Shown: positions 2,019-48,810 of the stretch, piece after piece
How the letters are laid out: every line of letters begins with the position of its first letter
Position numbering within the stretch: the stretch's first letter is position 1
Assembly (NCBI RefSeq): GCF_004323185.1
Contig: NZ_NAPS01000002.1
Location: 1,773,892 to 1,837,891, forward strand
Direction: 5' to 3'
DNA from: Westiellopsis prolifica IICB1
GTDB lineage: Bacteria; Cyanobacteriota; Cyanobacteriia; Cyanobacteriales; Nostocaceae
Length of the DNA: 64,000 bases
Made by a program: the position numbers and the translations under genes
Notes under the pieces: model-generated
The model's database searches: none
Seen by the model: the letters and a program-made list of their open reading frames with translations, nothing else
Told to the model about the DNA's origin: nothing

Positions 2019-3119
2019 CTAAAACGAGATTATCAAATAATTATTTTGGAATTTGGCGCCAGTAACAGATCTGCCATTTAAGGCAGGAGGTAGAAAAATA
2101 TTCCGCCTTTGATCTCCGGCTTCAATTGTCACCTCTGGCCCGTATTGGGTAAGTTTGACCTGTTTTTTATCAAATCCCGGCAAATATAAGCTTACTTTGT
2201 GTTCTTGGATGTTAATTTCAATAGGTTTGGGAGCCTGTACTGCTTGGTCTACAAAGTTGGGTAAGGTATCTACTAATGCTTGCCAGTCTTCTGTTTTGAT
2301 ATCTGGAACTAAGCTCACATTTAGGGGGCTAAATTGCTCAGAAATTTGCTGGTTTGTGTCATTAGAAACAAGGATAATGCCACCCACGGTTAAACCAACT
2401 TGTTGAGCGCTACCCCAAAGATAGCGGACGGAAGCAACCTCAACAGGGTCATCGGTTGTCACCAAAAAAGCAGCAACTTGTTTGGGGTCAGCGAGGGCGG
2501 CCCTACCCTTGTCTAAAAAATTGTTAACTTGGTTAGTAGGTTGGGCGAAGTTATCCGAAGTCCAGTTGATATTGAAAAAAGAACTAATTAGCGGTTGAAT
2601 CAAGGGTGATTCGGAAATTGCTTTACCGAGGTCGGAACTGACGAACAATTTCTGGAATCGCCGTACGTACCAACTGAGAAATTCTGGCATTCCGAACATT
2701 CGCAAAGTCGAGGTATCGCCATTGCCATCGTAAACGATCGCGTCATATTTGCCGCTTTCGTAGTACTCGCGAATAGCATTGAGGACAAGGGCGCTATCCA
2801 TCCCTGGTAAGACGGGTAGTTCTTGACCATAAACCTCTTTGAGGATAGGCGTTTTGAGATATTGCGCTTCTAGTTTTTTCACATCTTCCCAACTACGTTC
2901 TAGTAGTACAGAAGTTTGAAACTGAACGACGTGCAAATTCGCAGCAATTTCTTGAGGGTGAGAACCAATAGGAACACCCAACAAAATCTGCAATGCTGGT
3001 TCTGCACTCCCAGCTAAGAGTACGCGTTTTCCTTGGCTTGCTAATTGTTTGGCAGCTGCGATCGCTACTTTTGTCCTAGCGCTACCGCTTTTGCCCAAAA
3101 ATGTCAATATCAGGGCCAT
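2019..3119 (-). CDS. Get3d-type ArsA/Get3 family ATPase with alpha-crystallin C-terminus
   Basis: 366 aa from the ATG at 3119 (MALILTFLGKSG), chosen because the P-loop normally begins a few residues after the start; an upstream in-frame start would add 14 residues. The deviant Walker A reads GKSGSART (canonical GKGGVGKT): the signature Lys is kept but the second Lys is Arg. A DGNGDTST segment near residue 145 follows. The last 70 residues (KVSLYLPGFDKKQVKL...) match the HSP20-like domain found on cyanobacterial and plastid Get3d proteins. Role is unproven; tail-anchored or hydrophobic client handling has been suggested for the family. Confidence 0.8.
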   Translation of the reverse strand: MALILTFLGKSGSARTKVAIAAAKQLASQGKRVLLAGSAEPALQILLGVPIGSHPQEIAANLHVVQFQTSVLLERSWEDVKKLEAQYLKTPILKEVYGQELPVLPGMDSALVLNAIREYYESGKYDAIVYDGNGDTSTLRMFGMPEFLSWYVRRFQKLFVSSDLGKAISESPLIQPLISSFFNINWTSDNFAQPTNQVNNFLDKGRAALADPKQVAAFLVTTDDPVEVASVRYLWGSAQQVGLTVGGIILVSNDTNQQISEQFSPLNVSLVPDIKTEDWQALVDTLPNFVDQAVQAPKPIEINIQEHKVSLYLPGFDKKQVKLTQYGPEVTIEAGDQRRNIFLPPALNGRSVTGAKFQNNYLIISF

Positions 3120-3233
3120 TACTTGATTCCTAATTTTTACCGCCGATTTTTTCAACTCCAACTTAGCATTCGGCTGATTTAAGTAGCTTCCTTCTGAAGT
3201 TCAGCAATCAGAGGACACTTCGCCGCCCGCTTA

Positions 3234-3425
3234 CTATACTATTTTGAGTTCATCTTCAAAAAACCAAGTGGCAAAATTATCATCAAATTTGACTACAATG
3301 CCAACACCACTACCATCGGTCATTTTGTAACCTTCAATGATACCGACTTGTCCTAATCTTTTAACAATAGAAGCAGGTACGCGATCGCGCAAACGAAAAA
3401 CCTTTACTTTTTGTCCGATTTCCAT
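3234..3425 (-). CDS. petP: PetP-like small protein (cytochrome b6f-associated, DUF2862)
   Basis: 63 aa, SH3-like basic protein: starts MEIGQKVKVFRLRDRV and contains GYKMTDGSGVG and TWFFEDEL, the conserved core of the Tsr0524/Ssr2998 family (PetP). PetP binds the cytosolic side of the cytochrome b6f complex and affects linear versus cyclic electron flow. No membrane segment, as expected. It stands alone on the minus strand, about 110 bp upstream of the Get3d-like gene and possibly co-transcribed with it. Assignment rests on motif memory, not a search. Confidence 0.75.
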   Translation of the reverse strand: MEIGQKVKVFRLRDRVPASIVKRLGQVGIIEGYKMTDGSGVGIVVKFDDNFATWFFEDELKIV

Positions 3426-3469
3426 GCCAACTCACAATGCAATAAACCAAGACTCAGTGTACCGGAATC

Positions 3470-3600
3470 CGGTGCTGAGTGGGGAGTGGGGAGTGGGGAG
3501 ACATATCAATTAAAAATTCAAAATTCAAAATTCAAAATTGGGAAGGGGGACAAGGGAGACAAGGGAGAAATTTTTCCCAATGACCAATGACTATTGAGAA
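3470..3600. repeat. Heptamer-type short tandem repeats
   Basis: Consecutive blocks of gtgggga (three to four copies), attcaaa (four copies) and acaaggg (two copies) fill the gap between the PetP-like gene and the Uma2 remnant. These are STRR-like repeats of the kind scattered through heterocystous cyanobacteria. No gene seen. Confidence 0.8.
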
Positions 3601-3604
3601 ATGA

Positions 3605-3964
3605 CTAAAATTTTGGTTTTCACCAGAAAGTTTGGAATTTGTTGGTTTTGAATTAGTGGGAAATCAGTATCAAGAAATTGTCCATAATTCACAAGGATGG
3701 CGTTGGAGTCAAGTACTAAATTTGTATTTAGGTATATATGAAGACAATTTACGCTATTTTACTACGGTTGGTGATTTAGTTCCGACACCGGAGGAAGCTG
3801 CTTTTGCAGCACAACAACAAGCACAGCAAGCACAGCAACAAGCACAACAAGCACAAGCTAGGGCAAATGATACAGAATTACTTTTAGAACAGGAAAGACT
3901 GCGATCGCAACGTTTAGCTGAACAATTGCGTTCTTTGGGAATTGAACCGGATAATTTAACTTAG
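3605..3964 (+). pseudogene. C-terminal remnant of a Uma2-family endonuclease gene
   Basis: The + strand frame opens right after a stop at 3602-3604 and reads LKFWFSPESLEFVGFELVG, then a QEIVHNSQGW-type block, LGLY-like and TPEEAAFAAQQQAQQ segments. This is the usual C-terminal third of Uma2 (DUF820, PD-(D/E)XK) proteins, ending in an Ala/Gln-rich coiled coil and LRSLGIEPDNL. The nuclease core is missing, replaced upstream by heptamer repeats. A TTG at 3632 could start a 110-residue peptide, but no ribosome site supports it. Confidence 0.75.
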
Positions 3965-4137
3965 GCTCACACAACCAAAACTGAGAAACAACAGAGTAGA
4001 TTTAATAACTATTTGTGGTAAAATCTCCTAAACATTTTGGCTGCCATTTTGGAGTAGCGACTATTTTCAACAAAATAACAAAGGAACTTTCATAAAAAAT
4101 TGGCTTCAAAACAAGCAATTGGGTGTGTAGGTAGTGA

Positions 4138-5010
4138 GTGAGGAAGCAAAAATTGCTGCAAACAATGCGAGGAGTTGTCCGAAAAGCAGGTAAGCTGAAA
4201 AAATTGCTACCAATCAGCGAATTGTGGTGGGCAAAATTTGATTTATTAAGAGCGTTGGTAAGACGCGATTTAGAAGCCCGCTACAAAGGTTCAATCCTGG
4301 GTAATTTGTGGCCTTTATTAAATCAACTATCACAGTTATTAATTTATACCTACGTATTCTCGATAGTTTTAAAGGTCAAACTTAGTCTTAAAGGCGTTCC
4401 AGAAAACAATTTTACTTTTGGTTTGTGGTTATTTGCTGGTTTACTACCTTGGATTGCTTTTAGCAGTGGATTAATTCAGGCTGCAAATTCAGTAGTAGCA
4501 CAACCTAATTTAGTTAAAAAAGTAGTATTCCCTCTGGCTTTATTACCATTAGTACCAACTTTATCAACGTTTATTGAGAGTTCTTTTGGACTCATGGCGT
4601 TGATATTTTTTGTGGCTTTATCTACTCACACTTTACACTCAACCTTAGCGCTTTTACCCCTAATCTGGTTAACACAATTATTATTGACGGCGGGATTAGG
4701 TTATCTCATGGCGGGACTAACCGTGTTTTTGCGAGATATTCCCCAAACTTTGGGAGTTGTTTTAAATTTGTGGTTATATTTGACGCCAATTCTTTATCCT
4801 GCCAAAGCAATACCAGAAGAATGGCAAAATTTAGTATTTTGGGTAAATCCCATGACAGCTATTAGTGAAGTTTACCGCGATTTGATTTTAGTAGGAGAAG
4901 TCAAGCACTGGGGTGAATGGGGGGTTGCAAGTGTAATATCTGCAATTGTATTTTGTATAGGTTTTTTAGTTTATAAACGATTGCGTCCAGCTTTTGCAGA
5001 TGTTTTGTAA
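4138..5010 (+). CDS. wzm: ABC-2 type polysaccharide export permease (Wzm-like)
   Basis: 290 aa inner-membrane permease, first gene of the polysaccharide island. The RALVRRDLEARYKGS motif before the first membrane segment and the NLWPLLNQL and YLTPILYP segments are hallmarks of TagG/Wzm/RfbA permeases; six hydrophobic segments. It should pair with the ATPase at 5248 to move a lipid-linked glycan to the periplasm. The listed start is GTG 4138; ATG at 4165 is an alternative. A 133-bp palindromic element separates it from the ATPase gene. Confidence 0.9.
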   Translation: MRKQKLLQTMRGVVRKAGKLKKLLPISELWWAKFDLLRALVRRDLEARYKGSILGNLWPLLNQLSQLLIYTYVFSIVLKVKLSLKGVPENNFTFGLWLFAGLLPWIAFSSGLIQAANSVVAQPNLVKKVVFPLALLPLVPTLSTFIESSFGLMALIFFVALSTHTLHSTLALLPLIWLTQLLLTAGLGYLMAGLTVFLRDIPQTLGVVLNLWLYLTPILYPAKAIPEEWQNLVFWVNPMTAISEVYRDLILVGEVKHWGEWGVASVISAIVFCIGFLVYKRLRPAFADVL

Positions 5011-5024
5011 ATAGCTGTATGTAA

Positions 5025-5157
5025 TTAAGTAAGTCGGCAGGAATAAACCTAACTATATTACAGAAAGTAAATAACCCTAAAATCCTTACCAATAACCAAT
5101 GACCAATGACAAATGACGACCCCAATGAGTTATCTTGATTTGTGCCGACTTACTTAA
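5025..5157. mobile_element. MITE-like element with 15-bp perfect inverted ends
   Basis: Perfect inverted repeats ttaagtaagtcggca (5025-5039) and its complement (5143-5157) enclose about 100 bp containing ccaatgaccaatgac repeats and no ORF. It lies between the exporter permease and its ATPase, so the two may be transcribed through a long hairpin or from separate promoters. No clear target duplication seen. Confidence 0.65.
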
Positions 5158-5247
5158 CAGAAAACGGATAAATAGAAATTTTTTACTATTTGATGACATC
5201 AATGTGTAAAATTTAGCACAGTTAGTTTTGAGAGCGTATGTAGTGAT

Positions 5248-6615
5248 ATGGGTGAGGAGCTTGCAATTTCACTGAAGAATATCTCTAAGTGCTACAAGTG
5301 CTATGCTCGTCCAGTAGATAGGCTGAAAGAAATTTTGCTACCTGGAAATAGTCATGCACAAGAGTTTTGGGCATTACGTAATATAAACCTAGAAGTTTTT
5401 AAAGGAGAGACTTTAGGGATTATTGGTCAAAATGGCTCTGGGAAAAGTACGCTACTACAGATTATTGCTAGAACTTTGACACCTACTACAGGTGATGTGT
5501 TGGTAAATGGACGGGTCTCGGCCTTACTGGAATTAGGTAGTGGTTTTAATCCAGAGTTTACAGGACGACAAAACGTATTTTTTAATGGGCAGATTTTGGG
5601 TTTAAGTCGAGAAGAGATAGAAGCCAAGTTTGATGATATTGCTGCTTTTGCTGAAATTGGCGATTTCATGGATGAAACTGTCAAAACATATTCTAGCGGA
5701 ATGTTTGTCCGTTTAGCATTTGCAGTAGCTATTAATGTTAACCCAGAAATTTTGATCGTTGATGAATCATTAGCAGTAGGAGATGGAATTTTTGTGCATC
5801 GCTGCATGGCGAAAATTAAAGATTTTCAAGATACAGGTGGCACAATTTTGTTTGTATCACATGATATTGGAGCTATTTCACGCCTTTGTTCAGAAGCTAT
5901 CTGGATTAATAGTGGTGAAATTGTAGATACCGGAAAACCTGCTGAAGTTTGCAAACACTATCAAGCTTGGATTCATGAGGAAGTAAATAAGAGAACTGCA
6001 AAACAAATTTCTTCAGAACGAAATGTTTCAAAAAACTCACAAAACATAGATGAAGAAAAAATAGATATAAGCAAAATTACTACTAAAGAATTCAATCCTT
6101 TTACAAAAAAGCCATATATAGCATTTTCTGGATATGAGAGATTTGGTACAGGTCGTGCAGAAATAGAAAGTGTATCTATTGTTGATATGGATGAGCAACC
6201 AATCCAGTTAGTTTATCCTGGTGATCTAGTTAAAATCCGCGTTACCACATATAGACACGACAAAATTGTGAAGCCAAATGTTGGTATTGCTCTACTTGAT
6301 AGATTACGCACTGTTTTATCAGGATGGAGTACTGAGTTGTTAGATAAGAATTTTGCAAATTACTGGTTAAGTCAATCGGATATAGGAAGGGCAACAGTTG
6401 AATTCGAGTTTATTTGGCCTCATTTAGCTGGAGGAAATTATGCCTTTGATATAGCATTTGGAGACGGACCTCATGAAAATTTAGAAATGCTGGATTGGAT
6501 TCAAAATACAACTGTTATCCAAGCAGCAGTAAATGATTTATTTGATGGAATCTTTCAAGTATCTGGCAGAAAGGTCAGGTTATTTGAAGTTGAGGATACA
6601 TTATGTACAAAGTAG
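5248..6615 (+). CDS. wzt: Polysaccharide ABC exporter ATPase with Wzt C-terminal domain
   Basis: 455 aa. Residues 1-250 are an ABC ATPase: Walker A GQNGSGKST (about residue 60), signature YSSGM, Walker B ILIVDESLAVGD, then the His switch FVSHD. A linker follows, and residues about 285-455 form a beta-rich Wzt_C-type domain, which in E. coli O9a reads the terminal modification on the glycan and licenses export. Its presence fits the neighbouring methyltransferase and acetyltransferase. The last 13 bases overlap the acetyltransferase gene, so the two are translationally coupled. Confidence 0.92.
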   Translation: MGEELAISLKNISKCYKCYARPVDRLKEILLPGNSHAQEFWALRNINLEVFKGETLGIIGQNGSGKSTLLQIIARTLTPTTGDVLVNGRVSALLELGSGFNPEFTGRQNVFFNGQILGLSREEIEAKFDDIAAFAEIGDFMDETVKTYSSGMFVRLAFAVAINVNPEILIVDESLAVGDGIFVHRCMAKIKDFQDTGGTILFVSHDIGAISRLCSEAIWINSGEIVDTGKPAEVCKHYQAWIHEEVNKRTAKQISSERNVSKNSQNIDEEKIDISKITTKEFNPFTKKPYIAFSGYERFGTGRAEIESVSIVDMDEQPIQLVYPGDLVKIRVTTYRHDKIVKPNVGIALLDRLRTVLSGWSTELLDKNFANYWLSQSDIGRATVEFEFIWPHLAGGNYAFDIAFGDGPHENLEMLDWIQNTTVIQAAVNDLFDGIFQVSGRKVRLFEVEDTLCTK

Positions 6616-7130
6616 TTAAAGATTTTTTTAAGTCCCGTTTTGAAGACAAAATAAAACTATATATCGAGACTAATATTGAAAAATATATTAAACAATATAT
6701 ATCCCAAGGATATTTTGATGAACGTATAAAGAATATTAGTTTAAGCCAATATTTAGTATTTGGTGATGCTCAAAGATTGAAAATTTCTCAAAATTGTGTA
6801 TTGAATAATGCCTTATTCAATTTATCTTCTGGAGATATTTATATTGGTGAATATGTATTTTTTGGTCATAATGTCAGCTTAATAACTGGTACACATGATT
6901 ACAATAAATTTGGTCTGGAAAGAATGTATGATTTTCCAAAAGAGGGTAATGATATTGTGATCGAGGAAGGTACGTGGATAGCAAGTAACGTCACAGTTAT
7001 TGGCCCATGTAAAATTGGTAAGAATTCTGTAGTGGCCGCTGGTGCAGTTGTAAAAGGAGACGTTCCTAGCTATCATTTAGTTGCAGGTATCCCAGCTAAA
7101 ATTGTAAAAGAAATTAAGCCACAAGAGTGA
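6603..7130 (+). CDS. Hexapeptide-repeat acyl (acetyl) transferase
   Basis: 175 aa left-handed beta-helix enzyme. Hexapeptide-like repeats run from about residue 60 (DIYIGEYVFFG, IEEGTWIASNVTVIG, KIGKNSVVAAGAVVKGDVP) and end in the typical YHLVAGIPAKIV cap; the catalytic His is probably in GTHDYN. The N-terminal 50 residues are charged and helical and unlike most family members, perhaps for docking. It starts inside the end of the wzt gene and probably O-acetylates the exported glycan or a precursor. Substrate not visible from sequence. Confidence 0.88.
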   Translation: MYKVVKDFFKSRFEDKIKLYIETNIEKYIKQYISQGYFDERIKNISLSQYLVFGDAQRLKISQNCVLNNALFNLSSGDIYIGEYVFFGHNVSLITGTHDYNKFGLERMYDFPKEGNDIVIEEGTWIASNVTVIGPCKIGKNSVVAAGAVVKGDVPSYHLVAGIPAKIVKEIKPQE

Positions 7131-7233
7131 AGCTAAATAATGCTTTACTATTAGATTTAAACTATAGATATAAGTTTAATTTAAAACACTAAAATTCAAA
7201 ATCGGAAAATAATTGAGGAAAATTAAGTTAAGT

Positions 7234-8760
7234 ATGAATAAAATTAATATAGATGAACTGATGGAGAAAATTCGAGAAGAAGTAGCCCAACGTAAGTTTC
7301 AACAATCTCAATTGCAAGCTATTCCATCTGCTAATAGCTCTAATTCAAATAATAATAATATTGAAATTTCGGCAATAAAATGGGCAATAAATCACATTGA
7401 GGCTTTATTGAAAAATGCAGAATCTAGAGCAGTTCTCCGTACAAAATGGCCTGATAATTTAAATCGATTTCCTTACAATTTCAGTCGAGGATTGCAAAAT
7501 ATAGCACTCAAAATCCTCAATTTTATATTTAAAGACCAGCGGGAAGTAAATTTTAATGTTATCAATGCTTTGAAAGAATCTGTAGCACTCAATCAACAAA
7601 TAATTGCACAAATATCAGTTTTGCGATCGCAACTGGATGAGCGTTTGATAGCTGTAGAAAATCGCTTACAAGAACTGGATGGACATTTGAATGTTGTAAA
7701 TAGCAGTTTCCAAAAGGTAGATCACAATTTTCATAAAATTGACATTCAAACAAATAGCTGGATTAATGATATACAAAAGCACCTAGATGCCGTAAATAAA
7801 CAAATGCAAGGAATAAACGAGCATTTAGTTTCTGTAGATTCCCGTGTTGGAGGGTTGGGTCAACGCTTAAGTACTGTAGATTTTCGTGTCGAAGGGTTAG
7901 ATCAACGCTTAAATGCTGTAGATTCTCGCTTGAAAGAATTGAGTGAGCGCTACATGATAAATGAAAATTATATCAAAAACGATCTCTCACAGCAAAAGCG
8001 TTTAATTACTCTATTTTTAGAAGAAGCACGGCAAAGATTACCAGAACCTCTAAATCAACAGCAATTAGAGACTTTTGTCAATGAAGAAAACCACTTACTA
8101 GATGCATTTTACGTTGCATTTGAAAATCAGTTTCGCGGAACTCGCGATGATATTATCAATAGGTTAAAAATTTATTTGCCATTCATTGCAGAAGCAAAAA
8201 TTGGTGAATCAGATTCTCCGATTTTAGATGTAGGCTGTGGTCGTGGAGAATGGCTAGAACTCTTACGAATTCACAATTATACAGCACGCGGTTTGGATAT
8301 TAATAGAGTAATGCTAGAGCAATGTCGCTCTAGAGATCTAGAAGTGATAAAAGCAGATGTCATCTCTTATTTAAACTCCTTACCTGAGAATAGTTTGGGA
8401 GCAATTACAGGATTTCATATCATTGAGCATCTACCATTCCAGATACTGATGAAGTTGTTTACTGAAACAGTTAGAGTGCTTCGACCAGGAGGATTAGTAA
8501 TTTTTGAAACTCCTAATCCAGAAAATATATTAGTTGCTAGTCATAACTTTTATACAGATCCAACTCATCGCAATCCTTTACCAAGTACTACAGTCAAATT
8601 TATAGCTGAATCAGTTGGTTTGTGCAGAGTCAATATTATGAAACTTCACCCCTATACAGAGAATTTCAAAATAGATGATTCGGAACTGGCTGAACGGTTG
8701 AATGATTTATTTTATGGCCCACAGGATTATGCAGTAATTGGGTATAAAAATGACTTATAA
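7234..8760 (+). CDS. SAM-dependent methyltransferase with long N-terminal coiled coil
   Basis: 508 aa. I start at ATG 7234 (MNKINIDELMEKIREEV) rather than the TTG 21 bases earlier. Residues about 125-250 form a coiled coil with near-repeats (SVDSRVGGLGQRL, TVDFRVEGLDQRL, AVDSRLKELSERY). The class I methyltransferase domain follows: motif I LDVGCGRGEW near residue 330, GFHIIEHL, and LRPGGLVIFETPNPEN. Proteins of this shape are common in cyanobacterial and proteobacterial glycan clusters. By analogy with WbdD it may cap a growing chain, with the coiled coil setting distance; that is inference. It overlaps the next gene by 11 bases. Confidence 0.88.
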   Translation: MNKINIDELMEKIREEVAQRKFQQSQLQAIPSANSSNSNNNNIEISAIKWAINHIEALLKNAESRAVLRTKWPDNLNRFPYNFSRGLQNIALKILNFIFKDQREVNFNVINALKESVALNQQIIAQISVLRSQLDERLIAVENRLQELDGHLNVVNSSFQKVDHNFHKIDIQTNSWINDIQKHLDAVNKQMQGINEHLVSVDSRVGGLGQRLSTVDFRVEGLDQRLNAVDSRLKELSERYMINENYIKNDLSQQKRLITLFLEEARQRLPEPLNQQQLETFVNEENHLLDAFYVAFENQFRGTRDDIINRLKIYLPFIAEAKIGESDSPILDVGCGRGEWLELLRIHNYTARGLDINRVMLEQCRSRDLEVIKADVISYLNSLPENSLGAITGFHIIEHLPFQILMKLFTETVRVLRPGGLVIFETPNPENILVASHNFYTDPTHRNPLPSTTVKFIAESVGLCRVNIMKLHPYTENFKIDDSELAERLNDLFYGPQDYAVIGYKNDL

Positions 8761-9781
8761 AATTGCAGTTGTAGCACCTCGGATGGTAAGTGGTGAAGTT
8801 GGTGGTGCAGAGCGCTTTCATTTAGGACTTACAAATTCACTCAACTCTACTGATACCAATACCGATTTGATTCAGGTGGTGATTGATGAATCTACTTTTG
8901 AAGCAATTGAAGAGTCATATTTACGCTGTTATGACTTAGATTTATCTGCATATGATGCAGTAATTTCTACAAAAGCACCTACCTATCTAGTGCGTCATCA
9001 TAATCATATATGCTATTTGCAGCATACTATTAGAGTTTTCTACGACATGTTTGAGAAAGAATTTCCTTATGCAGATGCAACTCTTAACAGTCGAAGAGAA
9101 CTTATACATAAATTAGATACAGGGGCTTTAAGAACTCCTAGAACTCGTAAAGTTTTTTCTCAAGGACACGAGATCAAACACAGACTTCTCCATTGGAACG
9201 GTATTGATAGTGAAGTTTTATATCCTGGAATTGTTATTAATTGCGCTTTCCCAGGAAATTATGAATATATATTTATGCCTGGAAGATTGCATCGCTGGAA
9301 GCGTGTTGATCTAGTAATTGAAGCGATGCGCTATGTCAAACATCCTGTTCATTTAAAGATTGCTGGTACAGGTGAAGATGAAAAACAATTACGCATACTG
9401 GCTGCTAATGATGAACGCATAGAATTTTTAGGTCGAGTCCCAGATGAAGAACTTGTGAATTTATACGCAAATGCTTTAGCAGTACCATTTGTGCCAATTC
9501 GAGAAGATTATGGTTATGTCACCTTAGAAGCTTTTGCTCATGCAAAACCAGTAATTACCTGTGAAGATTCTGGTGAACCATTGCAATTTGTGAAAAATGG
9601 TGACACAGGTTTTGTTGTTCCTCCTCATCCCAAAGAAATTGCTAAAGCAATTAACTATTTTGTCGAAAACCCAGAAAAGACTAAAAGTATGGGACACAAA
9701 GGTAAGGAAGATACTAGTTACATTACTTGGTCAAATGTATCTCAAACCCTTTTAAGTTGTTTACAGAGTAAAAGAGGGTAA
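8750..9781 (+). CDS. Glycosyltransferase family 4
   Basis: 343 aa GT-B fold enzyme. N-terminal half MTYKIAVVAPRMVSGEVGGAER has the usual acceptor-side GGAER loop; the C-terminal donor-binding half shows IFMPGRLHRWKRVDLVIEAM, KIAGTGEDEKQLR, and the EX7E-type region PIREDYGYVTLEAFAHAKPVI. I use ATG 8750; a TTG 12 bases upstream also stands in frame. It overlaps the methyltransferase gene and is followed after one base by the next transferase, so the genes form an operon. Sugar and linkage unknown. Confidence 0.9.
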   Translation: MTYKIAVVAPRMVSGEVGGAERFHLGLTNSLNSTDTNTDLIQVVIDESTFEAIEESYLRCYDLDLSAYDAVISTKAPTYLVRHHNHICYLQHTIRVFYDMFEKEFPYADATLNSRRELIHKLDTGALRTPRTRKVFSQGHEIKHRLLHWNGIDSEVLYPGIVINCAFPGNYEYIFMPGRLHRWKRVDLVIEAMRYVKHPVHLKIAGTGEDEKQLRILAANDERIEFLGRVPDEELVNLYANALAVPFVPIREDYGYVTLEAFAHAKPVITCEDSGEPLQFVKNGDTGFVVPPHPKEIAKAINYFVENPEKTKSMGHKGKEDTSYITWSNVSQTLLSCLQSKRG

Positions 9782-9782
9782 A

Positions 9783-11831
9783 GTGAGTCAAAATCAAAAA
9801 TTTCAAGTCACTGTTTTAGATATGCAGCCTATTGATCCTCCAGTTGGAGGAGGAAGACTGAGATTATTAGGTTTGTATCACGATATGGGTAGTAAGCTTC
9901 CTACTACTTACATAGGTACCTATGATTGGAAAGGAGAAAAGTATCGTAGACATAAATTGAGCGATACTTTAGAAGAAATTGATATACCACTGAGTGATGC
10001 ACACTTTGCTGCTTGTGCTGAATGGCAGTCAAAAGTGGGTGGTAAAACAATAATAGATTCTTGTTTTAACTTGCTAGCTCATCATTCACCGGAATTTGTA
10101 GAAACAGCAAGAAAAAGAGTCGCCGCATCAGATATTGTCATTTTCTCTCATCCTTGGATTTATCCGTTGGTGAAAGATTTATTGCGATCGCGTCCTCAAT
10201 TAATCGTTTATGATTCTCAGAATGTAGAAGGATTACTTAGAACAGATTTATTGGATGATGATGGTTTTGGAACTGAAATTGCTAAAAACGTAGTCAATAT
10301 AGAATATCAACTCTGTCATGATTGCAATTTGATTCTTGCTTGCTCCCATGAAGATAGAGAGCTATTTCATAAATTATATAAAGTGCCATTTAGCAAAATA
10401 GCTATTGTTCCCAATGGTGTATTTACAAATAAAATTCAAAAAGTTGACGACAGCATTAGATATGCAGCTAAACAGAAACTAGGTCTAGAAAATTCTTTAC
10501 TTGCTATTTTTGTTGGCAGTTCCTATACACCCAATATTGAAGCTGCCAGGTTTATTATTGAAAAGTTAGCTCCTGCACTTCCTGAAGTTCAATTTGCCAT
10601 CTGTGGAGGTGTATGTACTAATTTTAATCAATTGGAATTGATTAATAAAAATATTTCTAATATAATTTTAACAGGCTTTTTAAAAGAAGAGGAAAAACTT
10701 AACTACTTAGCTGCGGCTGACCTAGCCATCAACCCCATGTTTTCTGGATCAGGCACAAATATAAAAATGTTTGATTTTATGGCTGCGGGTCTACCTATTG
10801 TGTCAACTCCTATAGGAGCAAGAGGCATTTTCCAAGGCTCAGAGCCAGCGTATCATATATCAACAGAAGCAAATTTTGTTAAAGGTATCCAGCTTCTACT
10901 TCAAGATAAAGGTTATGCGAAGGAACTTGGTAAATCAGCTAGGATATTAGCAGAAAGGAAATATTCATGGGAAAGAATCTCAAAAAAATTAGGGCTACTG
11001 TTATCCATAAATAGAGCCAATATTGATGTGAAACGTCCTGACTTTAGTGTCATTATTCCTTCCTACGAAAGACATCACAAATTAGAGGAATTACTAAACT
11101 GTTTGCAAAATCAAATTTGCCAAGATTTTGAAATAATTATAGTTGATCAAAGTCGAAAACCTTGGGAAAGAAAAAATAGTTATCCTGACTTAGATATACT
11201 TTACATTCATACTGATATCAAAGGGGCTGTCATAGCACGTAATACAGCCGCTTTCTATGCTAGGGGTGAAATACTTGCCTTTACAGATGACGATTGTCAG
11301 CCTAAACCTGATTGGTTAAAGAATAGTCTGAAATATTTTTATGAGAAAGAAGTAGTTGGTATAGAAGGACTAATTATCTCAGACAAATTAGAAGACAAAA
11401 ACTACCGTCCTGTAACCAATATAGGTTTTGAAGGAATTGGTTTTATGACTGCCAATTTACTAGTTAGACGAGAAATTTTTATGGCAGTTGATGGATTTGA
11501 TGAGTCTTTTGAGAATCCTCATTTTCGAGAGGATACAGATTTGGGTTGGCGAATCAGTAACTACGGCAAAATTCCTTTTGCCCATGATGTATGTGTTTTT
11601 CACCCACCTCATCTTCGTTGCGATCATCGTGAAAGTCTTGAAGAAAGATGCCGCTTTTTTGAGAAAGATGTTTTGTTGATGAAAAAGCATCCTGAACGCT
11701 ATCGAGAACTATTCATCATGGAGTCTCACCACTATAAAACTCCAGGTTTTAGAGAAAATTTTTTAAGAGGAGCAATAAAATACAATATTGAAATTGATAG
11801 TTTTTATTTTAATTTTTTAGAAAAATGCTAA
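9783..11831 (+). CDS. Bifunctional glycosyltransferase: GT4 fused to GT2
   Basis: 682 aa, GTG start directly after the previous stop. Residues 1-400 are a GT-B transferase (PVGGGRLRLLGLY near the start, LAIFVGSSYTPN, GSGTNIKMFDFMAAGLPIV). Residues about 420-680 are a GT-A family 2 domain: FSVIIPSYERHHKLEELL, then the metal-binding TDDDCQP near residue 500 and GFDESFENPHFREDTDLGWR. Two transferases in one chain suggest two consecutive sugar additions. Both domains look intact. Substrates cannot be told. Confidence 0.9.
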   Translation: MSQNQKFQVTVLDMQPIDPPVGGGRLRLLGLYHDMGSKLPTTYIGTYDWKGEKYRRHKLSDTLEEIDIPLSDAHFAACAEWQSKVGGKTIIDSCFNLLAHHSPEFVETARKRVAASDIVIFSHPWIYPLVKDLLRSRPQLIVYDSQNVEGLLRTDLLDDDGFGTEIAKNVVNIEYQLCHDCNLILACSHEDRELFHKLYKVPFSKIAIVPNGVFTNKIQKVDDSIRYAAKQKLGLENSLLAIFVGSSYTPNIEAARFIIEKLAPALPEVQFAICGGVCTNFNQLELINKNISNIILTGFLKEEEKLNYLAAADLAINPMFSGSGTNIKMFDFMAAGLPIVSTPIGARGIFQGSEPAYHISTEANFVKGIQLLLQDKGYAKELGKSARILAERKYSWERISKKLGLLLSINRANIDVKRPDFSVIIPSYERHHKLEELLNCLQNQICQDFEIIIVDQSRKPWERKNSYPDLDILYIHTDIKGAVIARNTAAFYARGEILAFTDDDCQPKPDWLKNSLKYFYEKEVVGIEGLIISDKLEDKNYRPVTNIGFEGIGFMTANLLVRREIFMAVDGFDESFENPHFREDTDLGWRISNYGKIPFAHDVCVFHPPHLRCDHRESLEERCRFFEKDVLLMKKHPERYRELFIMESHHYKTPGFRENFLRGAIKYNIEIDSFYFNFLEKC

Positions 11832-23394: not shown

Positions 23395-24480
23395 TCAACT
23401 CTGTAAATTTTCTGGAACTGGTTCAAAAAACTGTTTGATAAACCTGATTAAGTGTGGAGGTTGATTTAGATTGAATATACTTGTTTGTAAGAATATATAA
23501 AAAATGAAGATTATCAATAAACTTGTGCTAATACCAAACCCCATTCCCAGAAGTAAAATATTTTTTTTATAGGTAATAGAAGAATTATTATGAGTGATTT
23601 TGTCTTTAATCACACGTAAAGAAGAAAAAGATAAATCCCTAGCAGCAATAAGTGCTTCTAGAGCTTCTAATGCTGATTGATAACGCTTACTAGAGTGATC
23701 GCACACCATTTTATCTATTACATTTGCGAGACTGTTACTTACCCTGATGCGATCGCGCCAGATAATTTCTCCTGTATTGGGATCTTTTGGTATTTGGTCA
23801 GATTTTAATCCTGTCAGAGCTTGAATACCAATCATCCCAACCGCATAAATATCACTGCACAGTTGTGGTTTACCCTTGCTCTGTTCACTAGACATATAGC
23901 CAGGAGTACCCACAACAAGCGTGACACTAGTTTGTCCAAACTCATTGATTCCCAAACCACCAATTTTTTTAATACTGCCAAAATCAATCAATACAATTTT
24001 TCCGTCACTATGCCGTCGCATTAAATTTTGAGGCTTAATATCCCGATGAATAATGTTATTTTGGTGGACAAAAACCACTACTTCTAGAATTTCCCGCAAT
24101 AGGTTAAAAACCACATCTTCATTTAGACATATACCAGGAGAAATTTCTTGGGTTAAGTCATGACCATCAATAAATTCCTGAACCAGATAAAAATCACCAT
24201 TTTCATCAAAATGGGCAAATAAGCGAGGAATTTGGTTGTGATTGTCGCCTAGCTGATATAAAACTTCTGCTTCTTTTGCAAATAAATTTTTAGCAATTGG
24301 CACATGAGCCGGATTTAGATTCTTAGGCTTAAAATGTTTAACTACACAATAAGGTATCCCTGGCAAATCTAAATCAACAGCCAAGTAAGTATCGCCAGAA
24401 CCCCCACTCCCTAAAAGTTTAATAATCTTGTAACGATTCCGAAGGGTTATCCCAATTAGAGAGAGAAGATACTGACTCAT
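23395..24480 (-). CDS. Hanks-type serine/threonine kinase with C-terminal membrane segment
   Basis: 361 aa from ATG 24480. Kinase domain about 17-285: Gly loop GSGGSGDTY (24-32), catalytic HRDIKPQN (145-152), DFG (166-168), and GTPGYMSSEQ in the activation region. A single hydrophobic helix lies near residues 303-328, then a short extracytoplasmic tail of about 30 residues. The PstS-like gene begins 111 bases downstream on the same strand, so both may be one operon. Ligand unknown. Confidence 0.92.
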   Translation of the reverse strand: MSQYLLSLIGITLRNRYKIIKLLGSGGSGDTYLAVDLDLPGIPYCVVKHFKPKNLNPAHVPIAKNLFAKEAEVLYQLGDNHNQIPRLFAHFDENGDFYLVQEFIDGHDLTQEISPGICLNEDVVFNLLREILEVVVFVHQNNIIHRDIKPQNLMRRHSDGKIVLIDFGSIKKIGGLGINEFGQTSVTLVVGTPGYMSSEQSKGKPQLCSDIYAVGMIGIQALTGLKSDQIPKDPNTGEIIWRDRIRVSNSLANVIDKMVCDHSSKRYQSALEALEALIAARDLSFSSLRVIKDKITHNNSSITYKKNILLLGMGFGISTSLLIIFIFYIFLQTSIFNLNQPPHLIRFIKQFFEPVPENLQS

Positions 24481-24674
24481 ATCGTGCATTCTGAATGCTA
24501 AATTACTAACCAGCAAAAATAGTTAGTATTATTTTAAATAAGTAACTTATTTTTTACACGTACAAATTTAGTAACTAGAATAGATGTAGTAACGTTCAAA
24601 ACGATACTACTTGGTATCTATCCTCTGAGCATCAATCTCATTAGAGATTATTTTGTTTATAATTTAAAAATTTC

Positions 24675-42273: not shown

Positions 42274-42690
42274 TTTCGCTGACGGGTCTTTTATACTCGG
42301 CGATGAGTGTTTGATACTCGACGATGAGTGTTTGATACTCGACAACGAGTGTTTGATACTCGACGACGAGTGTTTGATACTCGATGACGAGTGTTTGATA
42401 CTCGATGACGAGTGTTTGATACTCGACGACGAGTGTTTGATACTCGACGACGAGTGTTTGATACTCAACGACGAGTGTTTGATACTCGACGACGAGTGTT
42501 TTATACTCGACGACGAGTGTTTGATACTCAACGACGAGTGTTTGATACTCAACGACGAGTGTTTTATACTCGACGACGAGTGTTTGATACTCGACGATGA
42601 GTGTTTAATACTCGACGATGAGTGTTTGATCCTCGGCGATGAGTCTTTTATCCTCGACGACGGGTGTTTGATACTCGACAACAGGGAAGA
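42274..42690. repeat. 21-bp palindromic tandem array, about 18-20 units
   Basis: Eighteen full units of 21 bp start every 21 bases from 42295 to 42652; degenerate units at 42274 and 42673 flank them. The consensus is actcgacgacgagtgtttga plus one base, with changes mostly at unit positions 5-11 and 19. Each unit holds a small hairpin actcg-acga-cgagt. Because the period is divisible by three, several frames stay open on both strands, which explains long low-complexity ORFs (KHSSSSI or DDECLIL repeats). No spacers, so not CRISPR. It lies downstream of the PsiE-like gene. Confidence 0.95.
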
Positions 42691-44745: not shown

Positions 44746-47286
44746 CTAGTCAGATTGGCGGGTACATCCTTGAAGCAATTGAAACTGTTTATTCTCAGCG
44801 TTTGTCTTTGTGTTTTTGTTTGGATCTGGTGGAGTAACTGTAACTAATAACCGCTTCTTAATTTCGTTGCGATCGCCATTATTCAAATCAAAACTAATAG
44901 TCTTGATACCATATCTAGGGTTAAACACATCACTTTCAAGAGGACTCTGTTGATTCTGTTTTTGAATTTCTTGAAAAAGAGTACCTCTTGAAAGTGGTTT
45001 TTGTGACTGTTGTGACTGTTGTGACCGAAAAATAGGAAATAATACTTGCACTGCTTCATACGATAAAGCTGTTAGTCGATTTACTGTACCTCCCCATTTT
45101 TGATTTGCATCCCTTGTAAATGTGCGATTACCGCAACCAGCAAACCAGTCTGTTGCAAGTACGAATTTTGTTGATAATTTATTATTATCGGTAATTGCTC
45201 CATACTGAAGAAGAGGATTTGAGCCTAGAATTTTTTGTACTTTGTTAAACTTATCTATCTTCTTCAGCACATGTTTAGCATTTTTATAGGCAGTCTCACT
45301 ATCTGTAGCACCATCAGGAAACAAAGCAATTATATCAGAATCGCCGATCTTATTTAAAATGTCATCAACCTTGAATTTACTATCATTTAAATTAATCGGA
45401 ATTTCAACTGTTAGGTTTCGTGGTAGTTTTGACTTAAATTCTTTAAATAGGTCTTCACTGTATTTGTCTTCTTTGTTGTATAAAACAGCTATTTTTGGTT
45501 GTTGTAAGTTCAGATTCTCTACATAATTAGCCAAAGATTGTGCCTCAAGTTGAACAGACGAAGCTGTTCTGAAGAATGCTTTATGACCACAACGAGTTCT
45601 GAGTTCACTCACTGAACTGCTTGGGGAAATTACAACTAGGTTTTGGTCATATTTTTTTAGTGCAGCACAAGTAACATCGCTAGCATAGTGACCAATCACA
45701 GCAAGAATGGATCGACCTTCTTCAAACGTCATTTCACTTAGTTTGTCTGCAATAGATCCGGCTTGCTCTTTCAAGTTGCGATCATTTGCAATTACTACTT
45801 CTAGATTAATTTTTTCACTTTCTATTGCTTTAGTTTGTGCTTGAGCCACACCAAATAAAATTTGTTGTCCTTGAGCAAAAAAATCGTTATCGTTTTGTGT
45901 CATATCATTCACATTAGTTATAGGAGTAACAACAGCAATGGTATAGATTGGTTTATTGTTTTTCTTTTGTCTTACTATGGCATTATTTCGGAAAATATAA
46001 ACCTCTGGATCTTTACCCCCAGTATTTATAATTTCATTGAATTTCTTTTCAGCTTCTTGATAACCTTGTATAGAATCTTTTTGAAATTCTGCAATTCCTT
46101 CAGTTTTTAATTTTCTATGATTATGTGTAAGATTTAGATCATAATAAATTGATTTTTCTCCCCAACTAATTAGCTCTTCAGCAGCTTCTGTTTGAGTGGG
46201 AGGGGGTGGGGGTATGTCGGTATATGAAGTAGATCGACAACCATTATCTTGACATCCGATTAAATAACCTAAAAAAACCAATATTGCACCCAATATTGCA
46301 ACTAGACCAATTACAGCCAGAGTATCACGGAGCCAAAATAAATTTAGAGGGAATATAGTTCTTTGTTGCAATTCCCTAGCACGGATTTCTTCAATTCTTT
46401 CCAGTATCACTTCTGTTGATTGAGGGCGGTCTTCAGGACGTTCTCTCATTAGGTCATTAATCAATTTGATGATACCAGAATGAGGAAATACGGTATCTTT
46501 ATTCCAAACTTGTAGTTGATTTCCATACTCATGAGGGTGCTTCTTGGTGAGAAGATAAACAAAAGTTTTGCCAAGAGCATAAAAATCTGATTGAAAAACA
46601 GGTTCACCCTGCCGCACTTCTAAAGGAGTATAACCCCAAGAACCCTCTACAAGAGTTCCTTGAACACCAGGAGTAGCATTTTTAGCTATACCAAAGTCAA
46701 TTAGTGCCAGTTCTTTCCTCCCTTCACCATTAGCTATCAGCATTATATTAGATGGTTTAATATCTCGATGGATAACATCTTTTTGGTGAATAGAACTCAA
46801 TATATTAGTTAATTGCTCCAGTAAATCTAAAGCTAGAGTTTTAGCTTCTCTAGATGATCGAGTAGAACCAATTTTACCATTGTCTCTTATCCAGTCTTCC
46901 AGGTTTTTACCATCAATATATTCCATAATTAAACAGGGAAGTTCGCGGCGTTCTGGGTTGGAAATACTTACTGAAAAACTATCTATACCTCTGGGCAAGG
47001 TACGTTCATTCATATTTAATAGTAATCTTTTTTCTTGCTCAAATAGTCTATCGAGAATAGGGTTACGTCTTATCTGAGTTTTTAAAACTCTTCGTTTCTT
47101 ATTAGTTGTATCTTTAATTTCAAATATCTGATAGTTATCATCGTGAGAAAGCTGCCTTAATGGTCTTAGCAAGTGGAAGCGCCCGTTAATTAACAAATCA
47201 GTTCCGCAATATTGGCATGAAGAAGCATCTATTAAATTTTGCCGATGCTCCTCGCCTGGACACCAAGGATTTATGCAGTAAATCAT
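44746..47286 (-). CDS. Receptor-like Ser/Thr kinase fused to a periplasmic ligand-binding domain
   Basis: 846 aa from ATG 47286. Order: zinc-ribbon-like N-terminus (C4, C9, C24, C27); kinase domain about 36-305 with HRDIKPSN (173-180) and DFG (197-199); one membrane helix (about 322-344); a linker with Pro-rich PPPPPTQ; then an extracytoplasmic type 1 periplasmic-binding (Leu/Ile/Val-receptor-like) domain from about residue 440: YTIAVVTPITN, ILAVIGHYAS, LVVISPSSS, PKIAVLYNKEDKYSED. The Gly loop is weak (RPLRQLSHDDNYQIFEI), but the catalytic loop is intact. It looks like a one-piece sensor for a small ligand. Lies 228 bases downstream of the NB-ARC gene, same strand. Confidence 0.9.
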   Translation of the reverse strand: MIYCINPWCPGEEHRQNLIDASSCQYCGTDLLINGRFHLLRPLRQLSHDDNYQIFEIKDTTNKKRRVLKTQIRRNPILDRLFEQEKRLLLNMNERTLPRGIDSFSVSISNPERRELPCLIMEYIDGKNLEDWIRDNGKIGSTRSSREAKTLALDLLEQLTNILSSIHQKDVIHRDIKPSNIMLIANGEGRKELALIDFGIAKNATPGVQGTLVEGSWGYTPLEVRQGEPVFQSDFYALGKTFVYLLTKKHPHEYGNQLQVWNKDTVFPHSGIIKLINDLMRERPEDRPQSTEVILERIEEIRARELQQRTIFPLNLFWLRDTLAVIGLVAILGAILVFLGYLIGCQDNGCRSTSYTDIPPPPPTQTEAAEELISWGEKSIYYDLNLTHNHRKLKTEGIAEFQKDSIQGYQEAEKKFNEIINTGGKDPEVYIFRNNAIVRQKKNNKPIYTIAVVTPITNVNDMTQNDNDFFAQGQQILFGVAQAQTKAIESEKINLEVVIANDRNLKEQAGSIADKLSEMTFEEGRSILAVIGHYASDVTCAALKKYDQNLVVISPSSSVSELRTRCGHKAFFRTASSVQLEAQSLANYVENLNLQQPKIAVLYNKEDKYSEDLFKEFKSKLPRNLTVEIPINLNDSKFKVDDILNKIGDSDIIALFPDGATDSETAYKNAKHVLKKIDKFNKVQKILGSNPLLQYGAITDNNKLSTKFVLATDWFAGCGNRTFTRDANQKWGGTVNRLTALSYEAVQVLFPIFRSQQSQQSQKPLSRGTLFQEIQKQNQQSPLESDVFNPRYGIKTISFDLNNGDRNEIKKRLLVTVTPPDPNKNTKTNAENKQFQLLQGCTRQSD

Positions 47287-47375
47287 AAAATTAAATGACA
47301 AACTAAGCTTATTTCAGTTATCATTTTTTAGTTTGCCATAAGAACACAAAAAATGATAATCAAACTTAGATTTCA

Positions 47376-47420
47376 AACCCCACATTTTTTAATAATGTGG
47401 AGTTCTAAATCTTATTTCAG
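47376..47420 (-). terminator. Weak hairpin between NB-ARC and kinase genes
   Basis: ccacat and atgtgg arms around a run of t and a, with partial extension (ttagatt / ctaaatc) outward. It could end the NB-ARC transcript before the kinase gene, but the stem is short. Confidence 0.3.
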
Positions 47421-47529
47421 CTATTAACATTTTCTGCTATACTAACAATATATTTACTTTATAAATACTTCTAAAAAATAAAAATCCTAGTGCGAACTCC
47501 CATAACCTGCCATAATTATGCTTGGCAGA

Positions 47530-48810
47530 TTACTGTAGTTTTCTGTTCAGTTGTCGCAGAACAAACTTTCTGACCATTGGTTGCAATGTATAAAAATATT
47601 CATTACTCTCGGAAACCTGTACTAATAGTAGTAGCGATCGCTGTTTGAGAGCTTCCAAAACTCTTGGAAGTTCTGAACTATGCATTCCATTAGGCAAATT
47701 GCTGTCTAGTTCATCGCGAGAAACTGGATCGGATGCTTTAGCTAAGTATCGCAAAATCTCTATTTGAAATTCCTTCAAGTCTCTAGTTACTGAGGTGAGA
47801 ATATTTTCGATTTCCTCTGGTACTACCAGACTTTTGTAGTGTCTATCAAGAAACTTTCGTTCATCACTATAATGCTCGCGAATCAAACCAGCTACTAATT
47901 TTAGTGCTAAAGGATTTCCATGATATTTGCTTACTAGCTCTTTTCTAGCTTGCTCATCAGATGTGAGATTCTTGGGATATCCAATACCATCACTTAAAAG
48001 TTTGCAACCTGCATTTTCATCTAATCCTTTAAGTTCATGAGCTTTGACGAAACTTGTTACTGCATCAAGATTATTGGGTTTTTTACGGCTGGTCAACATA
48101 ATACAACTTTGATGACGTTCCCAGCTTAACTGACCTAAAAAATTACAATAATCTTGGTAGCTGTCCCGGTTATCATGGGTCTGTTCTTCCTTTTCCGATA
48201 ATTCATGTTCATTCAAAATTATTAAGATCCGTTGCCGTTTTAACTCTTGCAAAAATCTTTTTTCTACATTACTAGTTATTTGCTCGGTATTGGGCAATAG
48301 GCGATCTAGCAATTCACTCAAGAGCTGGTCTTTAGGAGTGCTATAAGATATCTGTTGCCAAATTAATTTGTCAAATTTATTTTGTTTTTCTAGCTGTTCT
48401 GCCAGTTTTACTGCTAACTGAGTTTTACCAATTCCACCTAAACCATAAAGAATAATCCAACGGTAGTCTTCATCTAGTACCCATTTTTCTAATTTTTTCA
48501 GATCCTCATCACGCCCATAAAAATAAAGTTCAGCTGACGGGGCTGAATCCGAGTCATATTTAGATGGTTGTGATGGTTGTCTGGAATCAGCAATTTCTTC
48601 CCAATTTAAACCCAAGAACTCGCAGCATTTCTTAAAGTTGTCATTACTAATCGCACGATCAGCATACACAAAACGTTTCCAAGTTTTTTCTTCTATAAAA
48701 AGTTTCGATGTTACCTCCTGGAAAGTTTTTGCACTTGTACGTTGCAACCCTTTATTTTTAATAGCTTCCCGAATTTTGCGCTTACCTTCTTCAGATGCCT
48801 TTAAGCCCAT
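47530..48810 (-). CDS. NB-ARC (STAND) ATPase
   Basis: 426 aa. Residues 1-80 form a small helical domain common at the head of cyanobacterial NB-ARC proteins (MGLKASEEGKRKIREAI, TWKRFVYADRAISNDNFKKC). NB-ARC: FYGRDEDLKKLEKW, P-loop GLGGIGKT (123-130), Walker B-like ILIILNEHEL, LTSRKK, and GNPLALKLVAGLI, then a winged-helix end. There are no C-terminal TPR, WD40 or LRR repeats, so the usual sensor is missing or in another protein. STAND ATPases serve in signalling, transcription and phage defence; the role here is unknown. Confidence 0.88.
   Translation of the reverse strand: MGLKASEEGKRKIREAIKNKGLQRTSAKTFQEVTSKLFIEEKTWKRFVYADRAISNDNFKKCCEFLGLNWEEIADSRQPSQPSKYDSDSAPSAELYFYGRDEDLKKLEKWVLDEDYRWIILYGLGGIGKTQLAVKLAEQLEKQNKFDKLIWQQISYSTPKDQLLSELLDRLLPNTEQITSNVEKRFLQELKRQRILIILNEHELSEKEEQTHDNRDSYQDYCNFLGQLSWERHQSCIMLTSRKKPNNLDAVTSFVKAHELKGLDENAGCKLLSDGIGYPKNLTSDEQARKELVSKYHGNPLALKLVAGLIREHYSDERKFLDRHYKSLVVPEEIENILTSVTRDLKEFQIEILRYLAKASDPVSRDELDSNLPNGMHSSELPRVLEALKQRSLLLLVQVSESNEYFYTLQPMVRKFVLRQLNRKLQ

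Follow-up and report, generated by a model that had tools for sequence, protein, structure and literature searches.

A periplasmic sensor head shared by kinases and other outputs, and a predicted receptor kinase beside a short NB-ARC gene in Westiellopsis prolifica

In a stretch of 64,000 nucleotides from the cyanobacterium Westiellopsis prolifica IICB1 (contig NZ_NAPS01000002.1, positions 1,773,892 to 1,837,891; "the window" throughout), one gene encodes a Hanks-type kinase, a single membrane helix and a type 1 periplasmic-binding domain in a single protein, which we refer to as the receptor (Table 1). Its binding domain, the sensor, is an interchangeable head: the proteins that share it have a kinase, CHAT, caspase, TIR, AAA-type or NB-ARC output. 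Directly upstream of the gene lies a second gene, P0002, for a short NB-ARC STAND ATPase. With a probability of about 0.6, we favor the reading that the protein is a receptor kinase which binds a small ligand, probably amino-acid-like, and signals to the repeat-less NB-ARC partner. The architecture was already known; the sensor family and the NB-ARC neighbor add interest beyond it. The domains and folds, the single helix, conservation across the family, the exchange of outputs and the adjacency to NB-ARC genes are all computed results and are described below.

Results

Architecture and topology of the receptor

The reading frame of the receptor has an ATG start and zero internal stops, and an alternative TTG start five codons upstream is possible. 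Its four-cysteine prefix scores 24.7 bits with the NCBIfam family NF045510, for which the cut-off is 24, and the kinase domain matches Pkinase (Pfam PF00069) at 81.1 bits against 31.7. The catalytic set comprises K69, E85, HRD at 173–175, N180 and DFG at 197–199, and the kinase part of a full-length model superposes on PknB (5u94) with a Z of 25.0 over 247 residues. Relative domain placement in that model is unreliable (predicted local distance difference test, pLDDT, 77.6; predicted template modeling score, pTM, 0.57). The Gly-rich loop reads LRQLSHDDNY and lacks the GxGxxG pattern; judged from its sequence, the protein is a kinase-fold receptor with an atypical Gly loop. A defense-kinase label, PADLOC PD-T4-6 (PDLC04044, E 1.4e-64), was rejected as uninformative because four other kinases of the source genome also match it (1.3e-85, 4.1e-163, 6e-103 and 1.9e-56), three of them more strongly. 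Hydropathy gives one strong hydrophobic stretch, at about residues 321–343, and TPR families match, in the relatives L012, L022 and L235, the segment that corresponds to the short helical segment between the Pro-rich linker and the binding domain.

With Pfam alone the binding domain would go unnoticed, because ANF_receptor stays below threshold in the receptor protein (21.7 bits against 25.4) and Peripla_BP_6 has zero matches there in a scan at E up to 1; the latter family is matched (E up to 0.001) in all 11 remaining proteins of the alignment A2, which has 12 members. The fold is nonetheless apparent in a model of the sensor part (pLDDT 88, pTM 0.91), for which Foldseek finds the Leu-bound structure 4q6b at E 1.7e-17 and VIA-align gives a Z of 33.7 over 323 residues to 4q6b and of 34.2 over 335 residues to 4n0q. 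These values, 33.7–34.2 to Leu- or Ala-bound structures, identify the two-lobed type 1 fold. A profile of 25 sensors compared with the PDB likewise finds branched-chain amino-acid binding proteins at E 3.4e-34, and the Desulfitobacterium structures 4mlc and 4q6b also score high with the sensor-family profile. The domain sits behind a kinase and a transmembrane helix, and judged by this domain order the protein is not a free or lipid-anchored solute-binding protein.

The distribution of lysine and arginine around the helix supports a topology with the kinase or other output inside and the sensor outside, insofar as the positive-inside rule of thumb holds. Among 53 kinase-sensor proteins with a helix, the kinase side is richer in 41 and the sensor side in 5; the output side is richer in 21 of 25 CHAT-sensor proteins (sensor side 0 of 25) and in 29 of 45 AAA-type sensor proteins (sensor side 3 of 45), and the bias is weaker in anchor-only sensors (26 versus 11 of 51). 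The first-pass annotation of this gene, made from the sequence, had proposed a Cys4 N-terminus, a Hanks-type kinase with a weak Gly loop, one membrane helix and a type 1 periplasmic ligand-binding domain on the far side of the membrane, and each of these parts is borne out. It had also named two outcomes that would undo it, namely a structure prediction without a binding fold and a sensor in the cytosol; the structure prediction contains the fold, and the sensor is placed outside by topology prediction only.

For the pocket we compared the sensor with the leucine/isoleucine/valine (LIV)-binding protein, taking its ligand-holding residues to be Ser79 and Thr102 and its amino-group-binding residue to be Glu226. 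The comparison with amino-acid receptors that had been suggested earlier came out divided, with two positions kept and the third departing from the common Asp. Ser536 of the receptor lies at the Ser79 position, where 190 of 200 sensors have Ser, and Ser558 lies at the Thr102 position, where 152 of 200 have Thr and 23 of 200 have Ser. At the amino-group position Asp is commonest (105 of 200), and the receptor has Asn690, with Asn in 13 of the 14 members of its clade; Leu-bound 4q6b has an Asn near this position, but the alignment is gapped there, which makes the comparison unsure. The best guess at the ligand is thus an amino acid or a close relative, and the clade of the receptor may prefer a different one.

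Distribution and outputs of the sensor family

The sensor is matched in 52 of the 59 genomes searched, the source genome included. In a phylum-wide sample of 292 genomes, with up to six candidates scored per genome, a match at E up to 1e-20 is present in 103, of which 79, counted from the listed rows, reach E 1e-60; matches between these two values may be ordinary transport proteins. The 79 named loci, which are the best of 468 candidates confirmed from one peptide pattern, have cyanobacterial titles; the family may nevertheless extend beyond the cyanobacteria.

A census of 35 genomes (own genome, genus and family; two matches had no locus) yielded 105 distinct sensor proteins: 33 with an anchor only, 25 with a kinase, 19 AAA-type, 14 with CHAT, 4 with a caspase and 1 with NB-ARC, the remainder being six proteins of 615–632 amino acids with no clear helix and three fragments. 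Relatives with the architecture of the receptor, which the first-pass annotation had proposed to seek, are found in the kinase class. Output classes were called with hidden Markov models built from the sensor family, and checks of samples with Pfam confirmed TIR_2 in L051, Peptidase_C14 in L044, L161, L165, L188 and L199, CHAT in L012, L017 and L045, AAA_35 in L009 and L030, nSTAND1 with WD40 in L111, and NB-ARC in L135. Members of the AAA-type class differ in how well Pfam supports them: AAA_35 is evident in L009 and L030, L235 only approaches the cut-offs of ATPase_2 and AAA_16, and Pfam found no ATPase family in the 5′-truncated L022. The source genome itself has the sensor in four further proteins, one with an AAA_35 output (L009, 915 amino acids), one with CHAT and two sensors, both found by Pfam (L012, 1238 amino acids), and two that are an anchored sensor alone (L010 and L011), one of which has a kinase gene directly upstream. 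The first-pass annotation, which stated that such domains normally serve ATP-binding cassette (ABC) transporters or histidine kinases, overlooked that the head is shared with outputs of the CHAT, caspase, TIR, AAA-type and NB-ARC kinds, and that the NB-ARC neighbor is conserved.

Sensors without an output domain may be paired with one encoded next door. Two such sensors were excluded because their upstream sequence was too short, which left 57, some of them truncated at the end of a locus or contig. For 22 of the 57, the next gene upstream on the same strand encodes a kinase, and 11 of these kinase genes overlap the sensor gene or lie within 15 bases of it. The six proteins of 615–632 amino acids (L142, L149, L171, L172, L194 and L227) are among the 57, and none of them has a directly upstream same-strand kinase gene. 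The N-terminus of L149 resembles a DNA-binding helix-turn-helix by eye, Pfam being blank there in L142 and L149; these proteins are possibly cytoplasmic regulators.

The exchange of outputs is also apparent in a tree of the sensors, built by a quick method from 199 rows with close relatives retained and with the Shimodaira–Hasegawa-like approximate likelihood ratio test (SH-aLRT) as sole support. At least 25 changes of output label are needed, where the least possible number is 6 and the mean of shuffled labels 110.5. The clade of the receptor (SH-aLRT 100, 14 members) contains 9 CHAT, 3 kinase, 1 TIR and 1 caspase protein. The receptor's ortholog L015 has a sensor that is 60% identical, followed along the tree path by the kinase protein L016, the caspase protein L044 and the CHAT protein L046; outputs have thus been swapped inside the receptor's own clade.

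On cyanobacterial plasmids, the matches to the sensor bear one of three annotations: ABC transporter substrate-binding protein, hydrophobic amino acid uptake ABC-transporter, or caspase family protein. Locus L256, on plasmid pNLP1, typed as conjugative, has a very long caspase family protein with the sensor at its end, near an IS1380 transposase gene. Locus L010 contains two binding proteins that are PstS-like by eye (2682–4873 and 5020–6441, minus strand), whose N-terminal anchor (MSQKNET...) is nearly identical to that of the adjacent type 1 sensor protein; the anchor looks as if it had been exchanged between types of binding domain.

The NB-ARC neighbor

P0002 matches NB-ARC (Pfam) at 68.2 bits against a cut-off of 23.5, and no C-terminal repeats were found in its 426 residues, no repeat family being among the 20 Pfam matches listed. 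The 243 base pairs that separate it from the receptor gene fold far better as RNA than shuffled sequence does (z −4.54). This gap is present in a single copy in the genome and is therefore not a repeated element, and we rejected it as a mobile element.

Adjacency was defined as under 500 bases on the same strand and was counted in loci with flanks, with duplicates removed. By this measure 10 of 54 kinase-sensor genes have an NB-ARC neighbor; among 74 genes for other sensors (35 AAA-type, 23 none or other, 13 CHAT, 2 caspase and 1 TIR) the number is 0. A comparison extended to 5.6 kb was set aside, since the sets have unequal upstream flanks. The first NB-ARC profile had been seeded with the partners of kinase-sensor genes; a control profile without receptor partners, from 13 NB-ARC genes elsewhere in five genomes, reproduces the same counts. 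As background, P0002-like genes account for 58 match rows across the roughly 44.7 Mb of six genomes, and we therefore estimate that chance adjacency within 500 bases would affect well under one in 54 genes. In G008 a homolog of P0002 directly precedes the receptor's ortholog, at 409 bases when counted by open frame. Kinase-sensor genes of G001, G002, G003, G029 and Elainella Prado103 are likewise directly preceded by one, and in Prado103 the NB-ARC and kinase-sensor frames overlap (L068). The homolog lies directly downstream, at 38–261 bases, of a second kinase-sensor gene in G008 and of those in G017 and G031. In L135 an NB-ARC domain is fused to a helix and the sensor.

Within the source genome P0002 is the only short match, the others lying in frames of 1176–1208 amino acids. 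The partners beside receptors have frames of 352–537 amino acids, plus one of 132 that is cut by the end of its locus, and short NB-ARC frames occur also away from receptors in other genomes. Of four such genes away from sensors that were inspected, three have no kinase or sensor and one has an adjacent kinase. The latter (L270, in G024) has an NB-ARC gene at 5638–6852 and then a kinase gene at 7016–8299, both on the minus strand; the kinase has the four cysteines, lacks the loop, has a membrane helix and ends before any sensor. This sensor-less pair ties NB-ARC to the kinase part. Taken with the adjacency counts and the fusion in L135, it suggests a partnership of NB-ARC protein and kinase into which the sensor feeds. 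As to an N-terminal helix-turn-helix in the partners, a profile of five of them finds PezA alone, and weakly (E 0.39), and a related partner, L248, matches HTH_26 at E 0.00077, below the family cut-off.

Loss of the Gly-rich loop

The state of the loop was read from aligned segments of 56 kinase-sensor proteins (57 rows, one protein occurring twice). The loop glycines are lost in 12 of the 56, namely the receptor of the window, L015, L020, L021, L023, L068, L167, L191, L210, L217, L218 and L219. The loss is kept in the ortholog and is recurrent, and is therefore no sequencing error. The Lys, Glu, HRD, Asn and DFG are present in all 12, which may still be capable of catalysis. Among the 12 loop-less kinases, 7 have an adjoining NB-ARC gene; among 41 whose loop is normal, 3 do (L246, L248 and L252). 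If the fragment L087 is counted as loop-less, the first figure becomes 7 of 13 and Fisher's test, which ignores relatedness, gives p 0.0008. By our reading of the sensor tree the 12 proteins represent about five lineages, and for that reason we treat the association as a lead. In the loop-less locus L238 (G020), a gene that by eye resembles a TnpB-type transposase (8915–10123, minus strand) overlaps the kinase-sensor frame.

Other features of the window

The coordinates of the receptor gene, its parts and its neighbor are collected in Table 1. Elsewhere in the window, a 21-base tandem repeat of 19 copies occupies 42281–42679, with long repetitive open frames on both strands, and a further Hanks-type kinase gene, which gave a kinase match in the search of the source genome, lies at 23395–24516 on the minus strand.

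Table 1. Positions in the window of the receptor gene, its parts and the adjoining NB-ARC gene
Feature	Positions	Strand	Basis
Receptor gene, 846 amino acids	44746..47286	−	Open reading frame and translation
Four-Cys prefix (Cys 4, 9, 24, 27)	47194..47286	−	NF045510 above cut-off
Hanks-type kinase domain, residues 33–305	46372..47190	−	PF00069; PknB fold; catalytic residues
Degenerate Gly-rich loop, residues 43–52	47131..47160	−	Alignment of kinase-sensor proteins
Single transmembrane helix, residues 321–343	46258..46326	−	Hydropathy; positive-inside statistics
Pro-rich linker after the helix, residues 344–371	46174..46257	−	Sequence
TPR-like short helical segment, DPE..IY.NNA motif, residues 372–441	45964..46173	−	Alignment A1, model helices
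Type 1 periplasmic-binding domain, LivK/LivJ-like, residues 446–840	44767..45951	−	Model, fold matches
P0002, NB-ARC STAND ATPase gene, 426 amino acids, upstream of receptor	47530..48810	−	Pfam; conserved adjacency
Gap between P0002 and receptor genes, 243 bp	47287..47529	−	Strongly structured as RNA; single copy in genome

Discussion

How the receptor may work

It is informative to consider how these parts could operate together. C-terminal repeats are often the sensor of NB-ARC and other STAND proteins, and as P0002 has none, the receptor would supply its input. The periplasmic Venus-flytrap head, of the branched-chain amino-acid binding type, would close around its small ligand, which is most probably an amino acid or a similar compound. 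The TPR-like linker and the membrane helix would relay the change to the cytoplasmic Hanks kinase with its redox-type four-Cys prefix, which would in turn act on its most likely partner, P0002. In this scheme we infer the class of the ligand, the closing of the head and its transmission, the activity of the kinase and the NB-ARC protein as its target. In Synechocystis the kinase SpkB is inactivated when its N-terminal Cys motif is oxidized, as stated in the relevant passage of PMC12189002, and by analogy the receptor may join a redox input to its ligand input.

Several observations weigh against this reading. No NB-ARC gene adjoins 44 of the 54 kinase-sensor genes, and since three of the four inspected short NB-ARC genes away from sensors lack a kinase or sensor beside them, such genes are not always tied to a receptor. 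The 243-base gap is no proof that P0002 and the receptor are co-transcribed. One partner, L239, reaches only 20.3 for NB-ARC against the Pfam cut-off of 23.5, with NACHT above its own cut-off. Among the other loop-less loci, L236, L237, L240 and L241 have an NB-ARC gene no nearer than 3.4–5.4 kb upstream on the same strand, and L238 has none. The degenerate Gly loop means that kinase activity could be lost, and Asn690 stands at the amino-group position where the family mostly has Asp, although that comparison is unsure.

Other explanations have to be considered in this light. Plant pseudokinases act as platforms for the nucleotide-binding leucine-rich-repeat (NLR) protein ZAR1, and by analogy the kinase domain might be a scaffold, a loop-less platform that would hold the NB-ARC ATPase and release it on ligand binding. 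Such a role would suit a loop loss that is common to 12 proteins, the preference of NB-ARC genes for loop-less kinases and the sensor-less, loop-less kinase of L270 that is likewise beside an NB-ARC gene. However, pseudokinases have usually lost some of the Lys, Glu, HRD, Asn and DFG, all of which are kept in the 12; in addition, three NB-ARC-adjacent kinases have a normal loop and the loop-less proteins make up about five lineages. We therefore consider a scaffold unlikely. It is similarly improbable that the kinase serves targets of another kind, such as enzymes of nitrogen or carbon metabolism in the manner of GlnH-GlnX-PknG, with the NB-ARC gene an unlinked neighbor: the many kinase-sensor genes without an adjacent NB-ARC gene would fit, and control of PknG by a periplasmic binding protein is established in actinobacteria (PMC9769921), yet several lineages show the adjacency, with either gene order, and a fusion exists as well.

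A further explanation, also unlikely, concerns the ligand, in that the sensor could read a cue of conflict or damage, such as a peptide or a phage- or neighbor-derived molecule, and trigger a response of the cell-death type. The mixture of CHAT, TIR and caspase proteins with kinases in the receptor's own clade speaks for it, and caspase, TIR and STAND parts have been described in conflict systems (in the part of PMC7159879 that concerns them). Against it, two pocket positions of the amino-acid type are retained, the nearest solved structures are amino-acid binding proteins and the PD-T4-6 match of the kinase is unspecific. Returning to the favored receptor kinase with its NB-ARC partner, it is tempting to go further and to see a bacterial membrane counterpart of receptor-kinase/NLR pairs, in which the loop-less kinase of an amino-acid-type flytrap receptor would directly switch a repeat-less NB-ARC ATPase, so that a small molecule outside would gate machinery of the immunity or death type; this more specific proposal is speculative and we hold it to be doubtful.

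Comparison with known systems

A protein with a kinase and an ANF receptor was listed in Nostoc sp. PCC 7120 by Krupa and Srinivasan (2005; PMC1262709), who mention it in one table, one figure legend and a single sentence. Like the receptor, it joins a Ser/Thr kinase to a domain of the branched-chain amino-acid type in one protein, and the receptor has this same architecture, the kinase by Pfam and the binding fold by model. The one-piece receptor kinase of the first-pass annotation thus stands as an architecture, upheld by structure prediction, predicted topology and family conservation, and is less novel than it was taken to be. In those places PMC1262709 mentions no NB-ARC neighbor, loop loss or shared sensor family, and the comparison is one of descriptions. 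No paper was found in a literature search that pairs both phrases of the NCBI product names for a bifunctional kinase/binding protein, and in the literature searched, as far as the consulted portions of it extend, we found no account of a head shared across outputs or of the NB-ARC pairing.

Proteins with caspase and ANF_receptor domains have been reported in cyanobacteria (PMC3501461, PMC5756287) and join the same kind of binding domain to an output of the cell-death type; this output is a protease and not a kinase, and in the relevant passages of both papers it is one architecture among many. Some instances of System 4 of Kaur et al. 2020 have a caspase, a transmembrane helix and an extracellular periplasmic binding protein domain, although that system is defined, in the section of PMC7159879 devoted to it, by an EACC1 partner gene and is prevalent in actinobacteria. 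In the GlnH-GlnX-PknG system of Corynebacterium a periplasmic amino-acid binding protein likewise controls a Ser/Thr kinase, but through three separate proteins (PMC9769921), of which GlnX has four membrane segments, whereas the receptor is of one piece.

The LivJ and LivK binding proteins of ABC transporters and the ligand domains of metabotropic glutamate receptors share the fold and part of the ligand pocket with the sensor, which differs from them in being the membrane-tethered C-terminal part of a signaling protein. For the most part, bacterial systems with TIR, caspase, CHAT and NB-ARC parts are taken to detect intruders within the cell. A large cyanobacterial family in which one extracellular head is wired to these outputs as well as to kinases would show how they are coupled to the chemistry outside, a question that can be tested in a few proteins, and the receptor and its NB-ARC partner form a pair small enough to be rebuilt in vitro.

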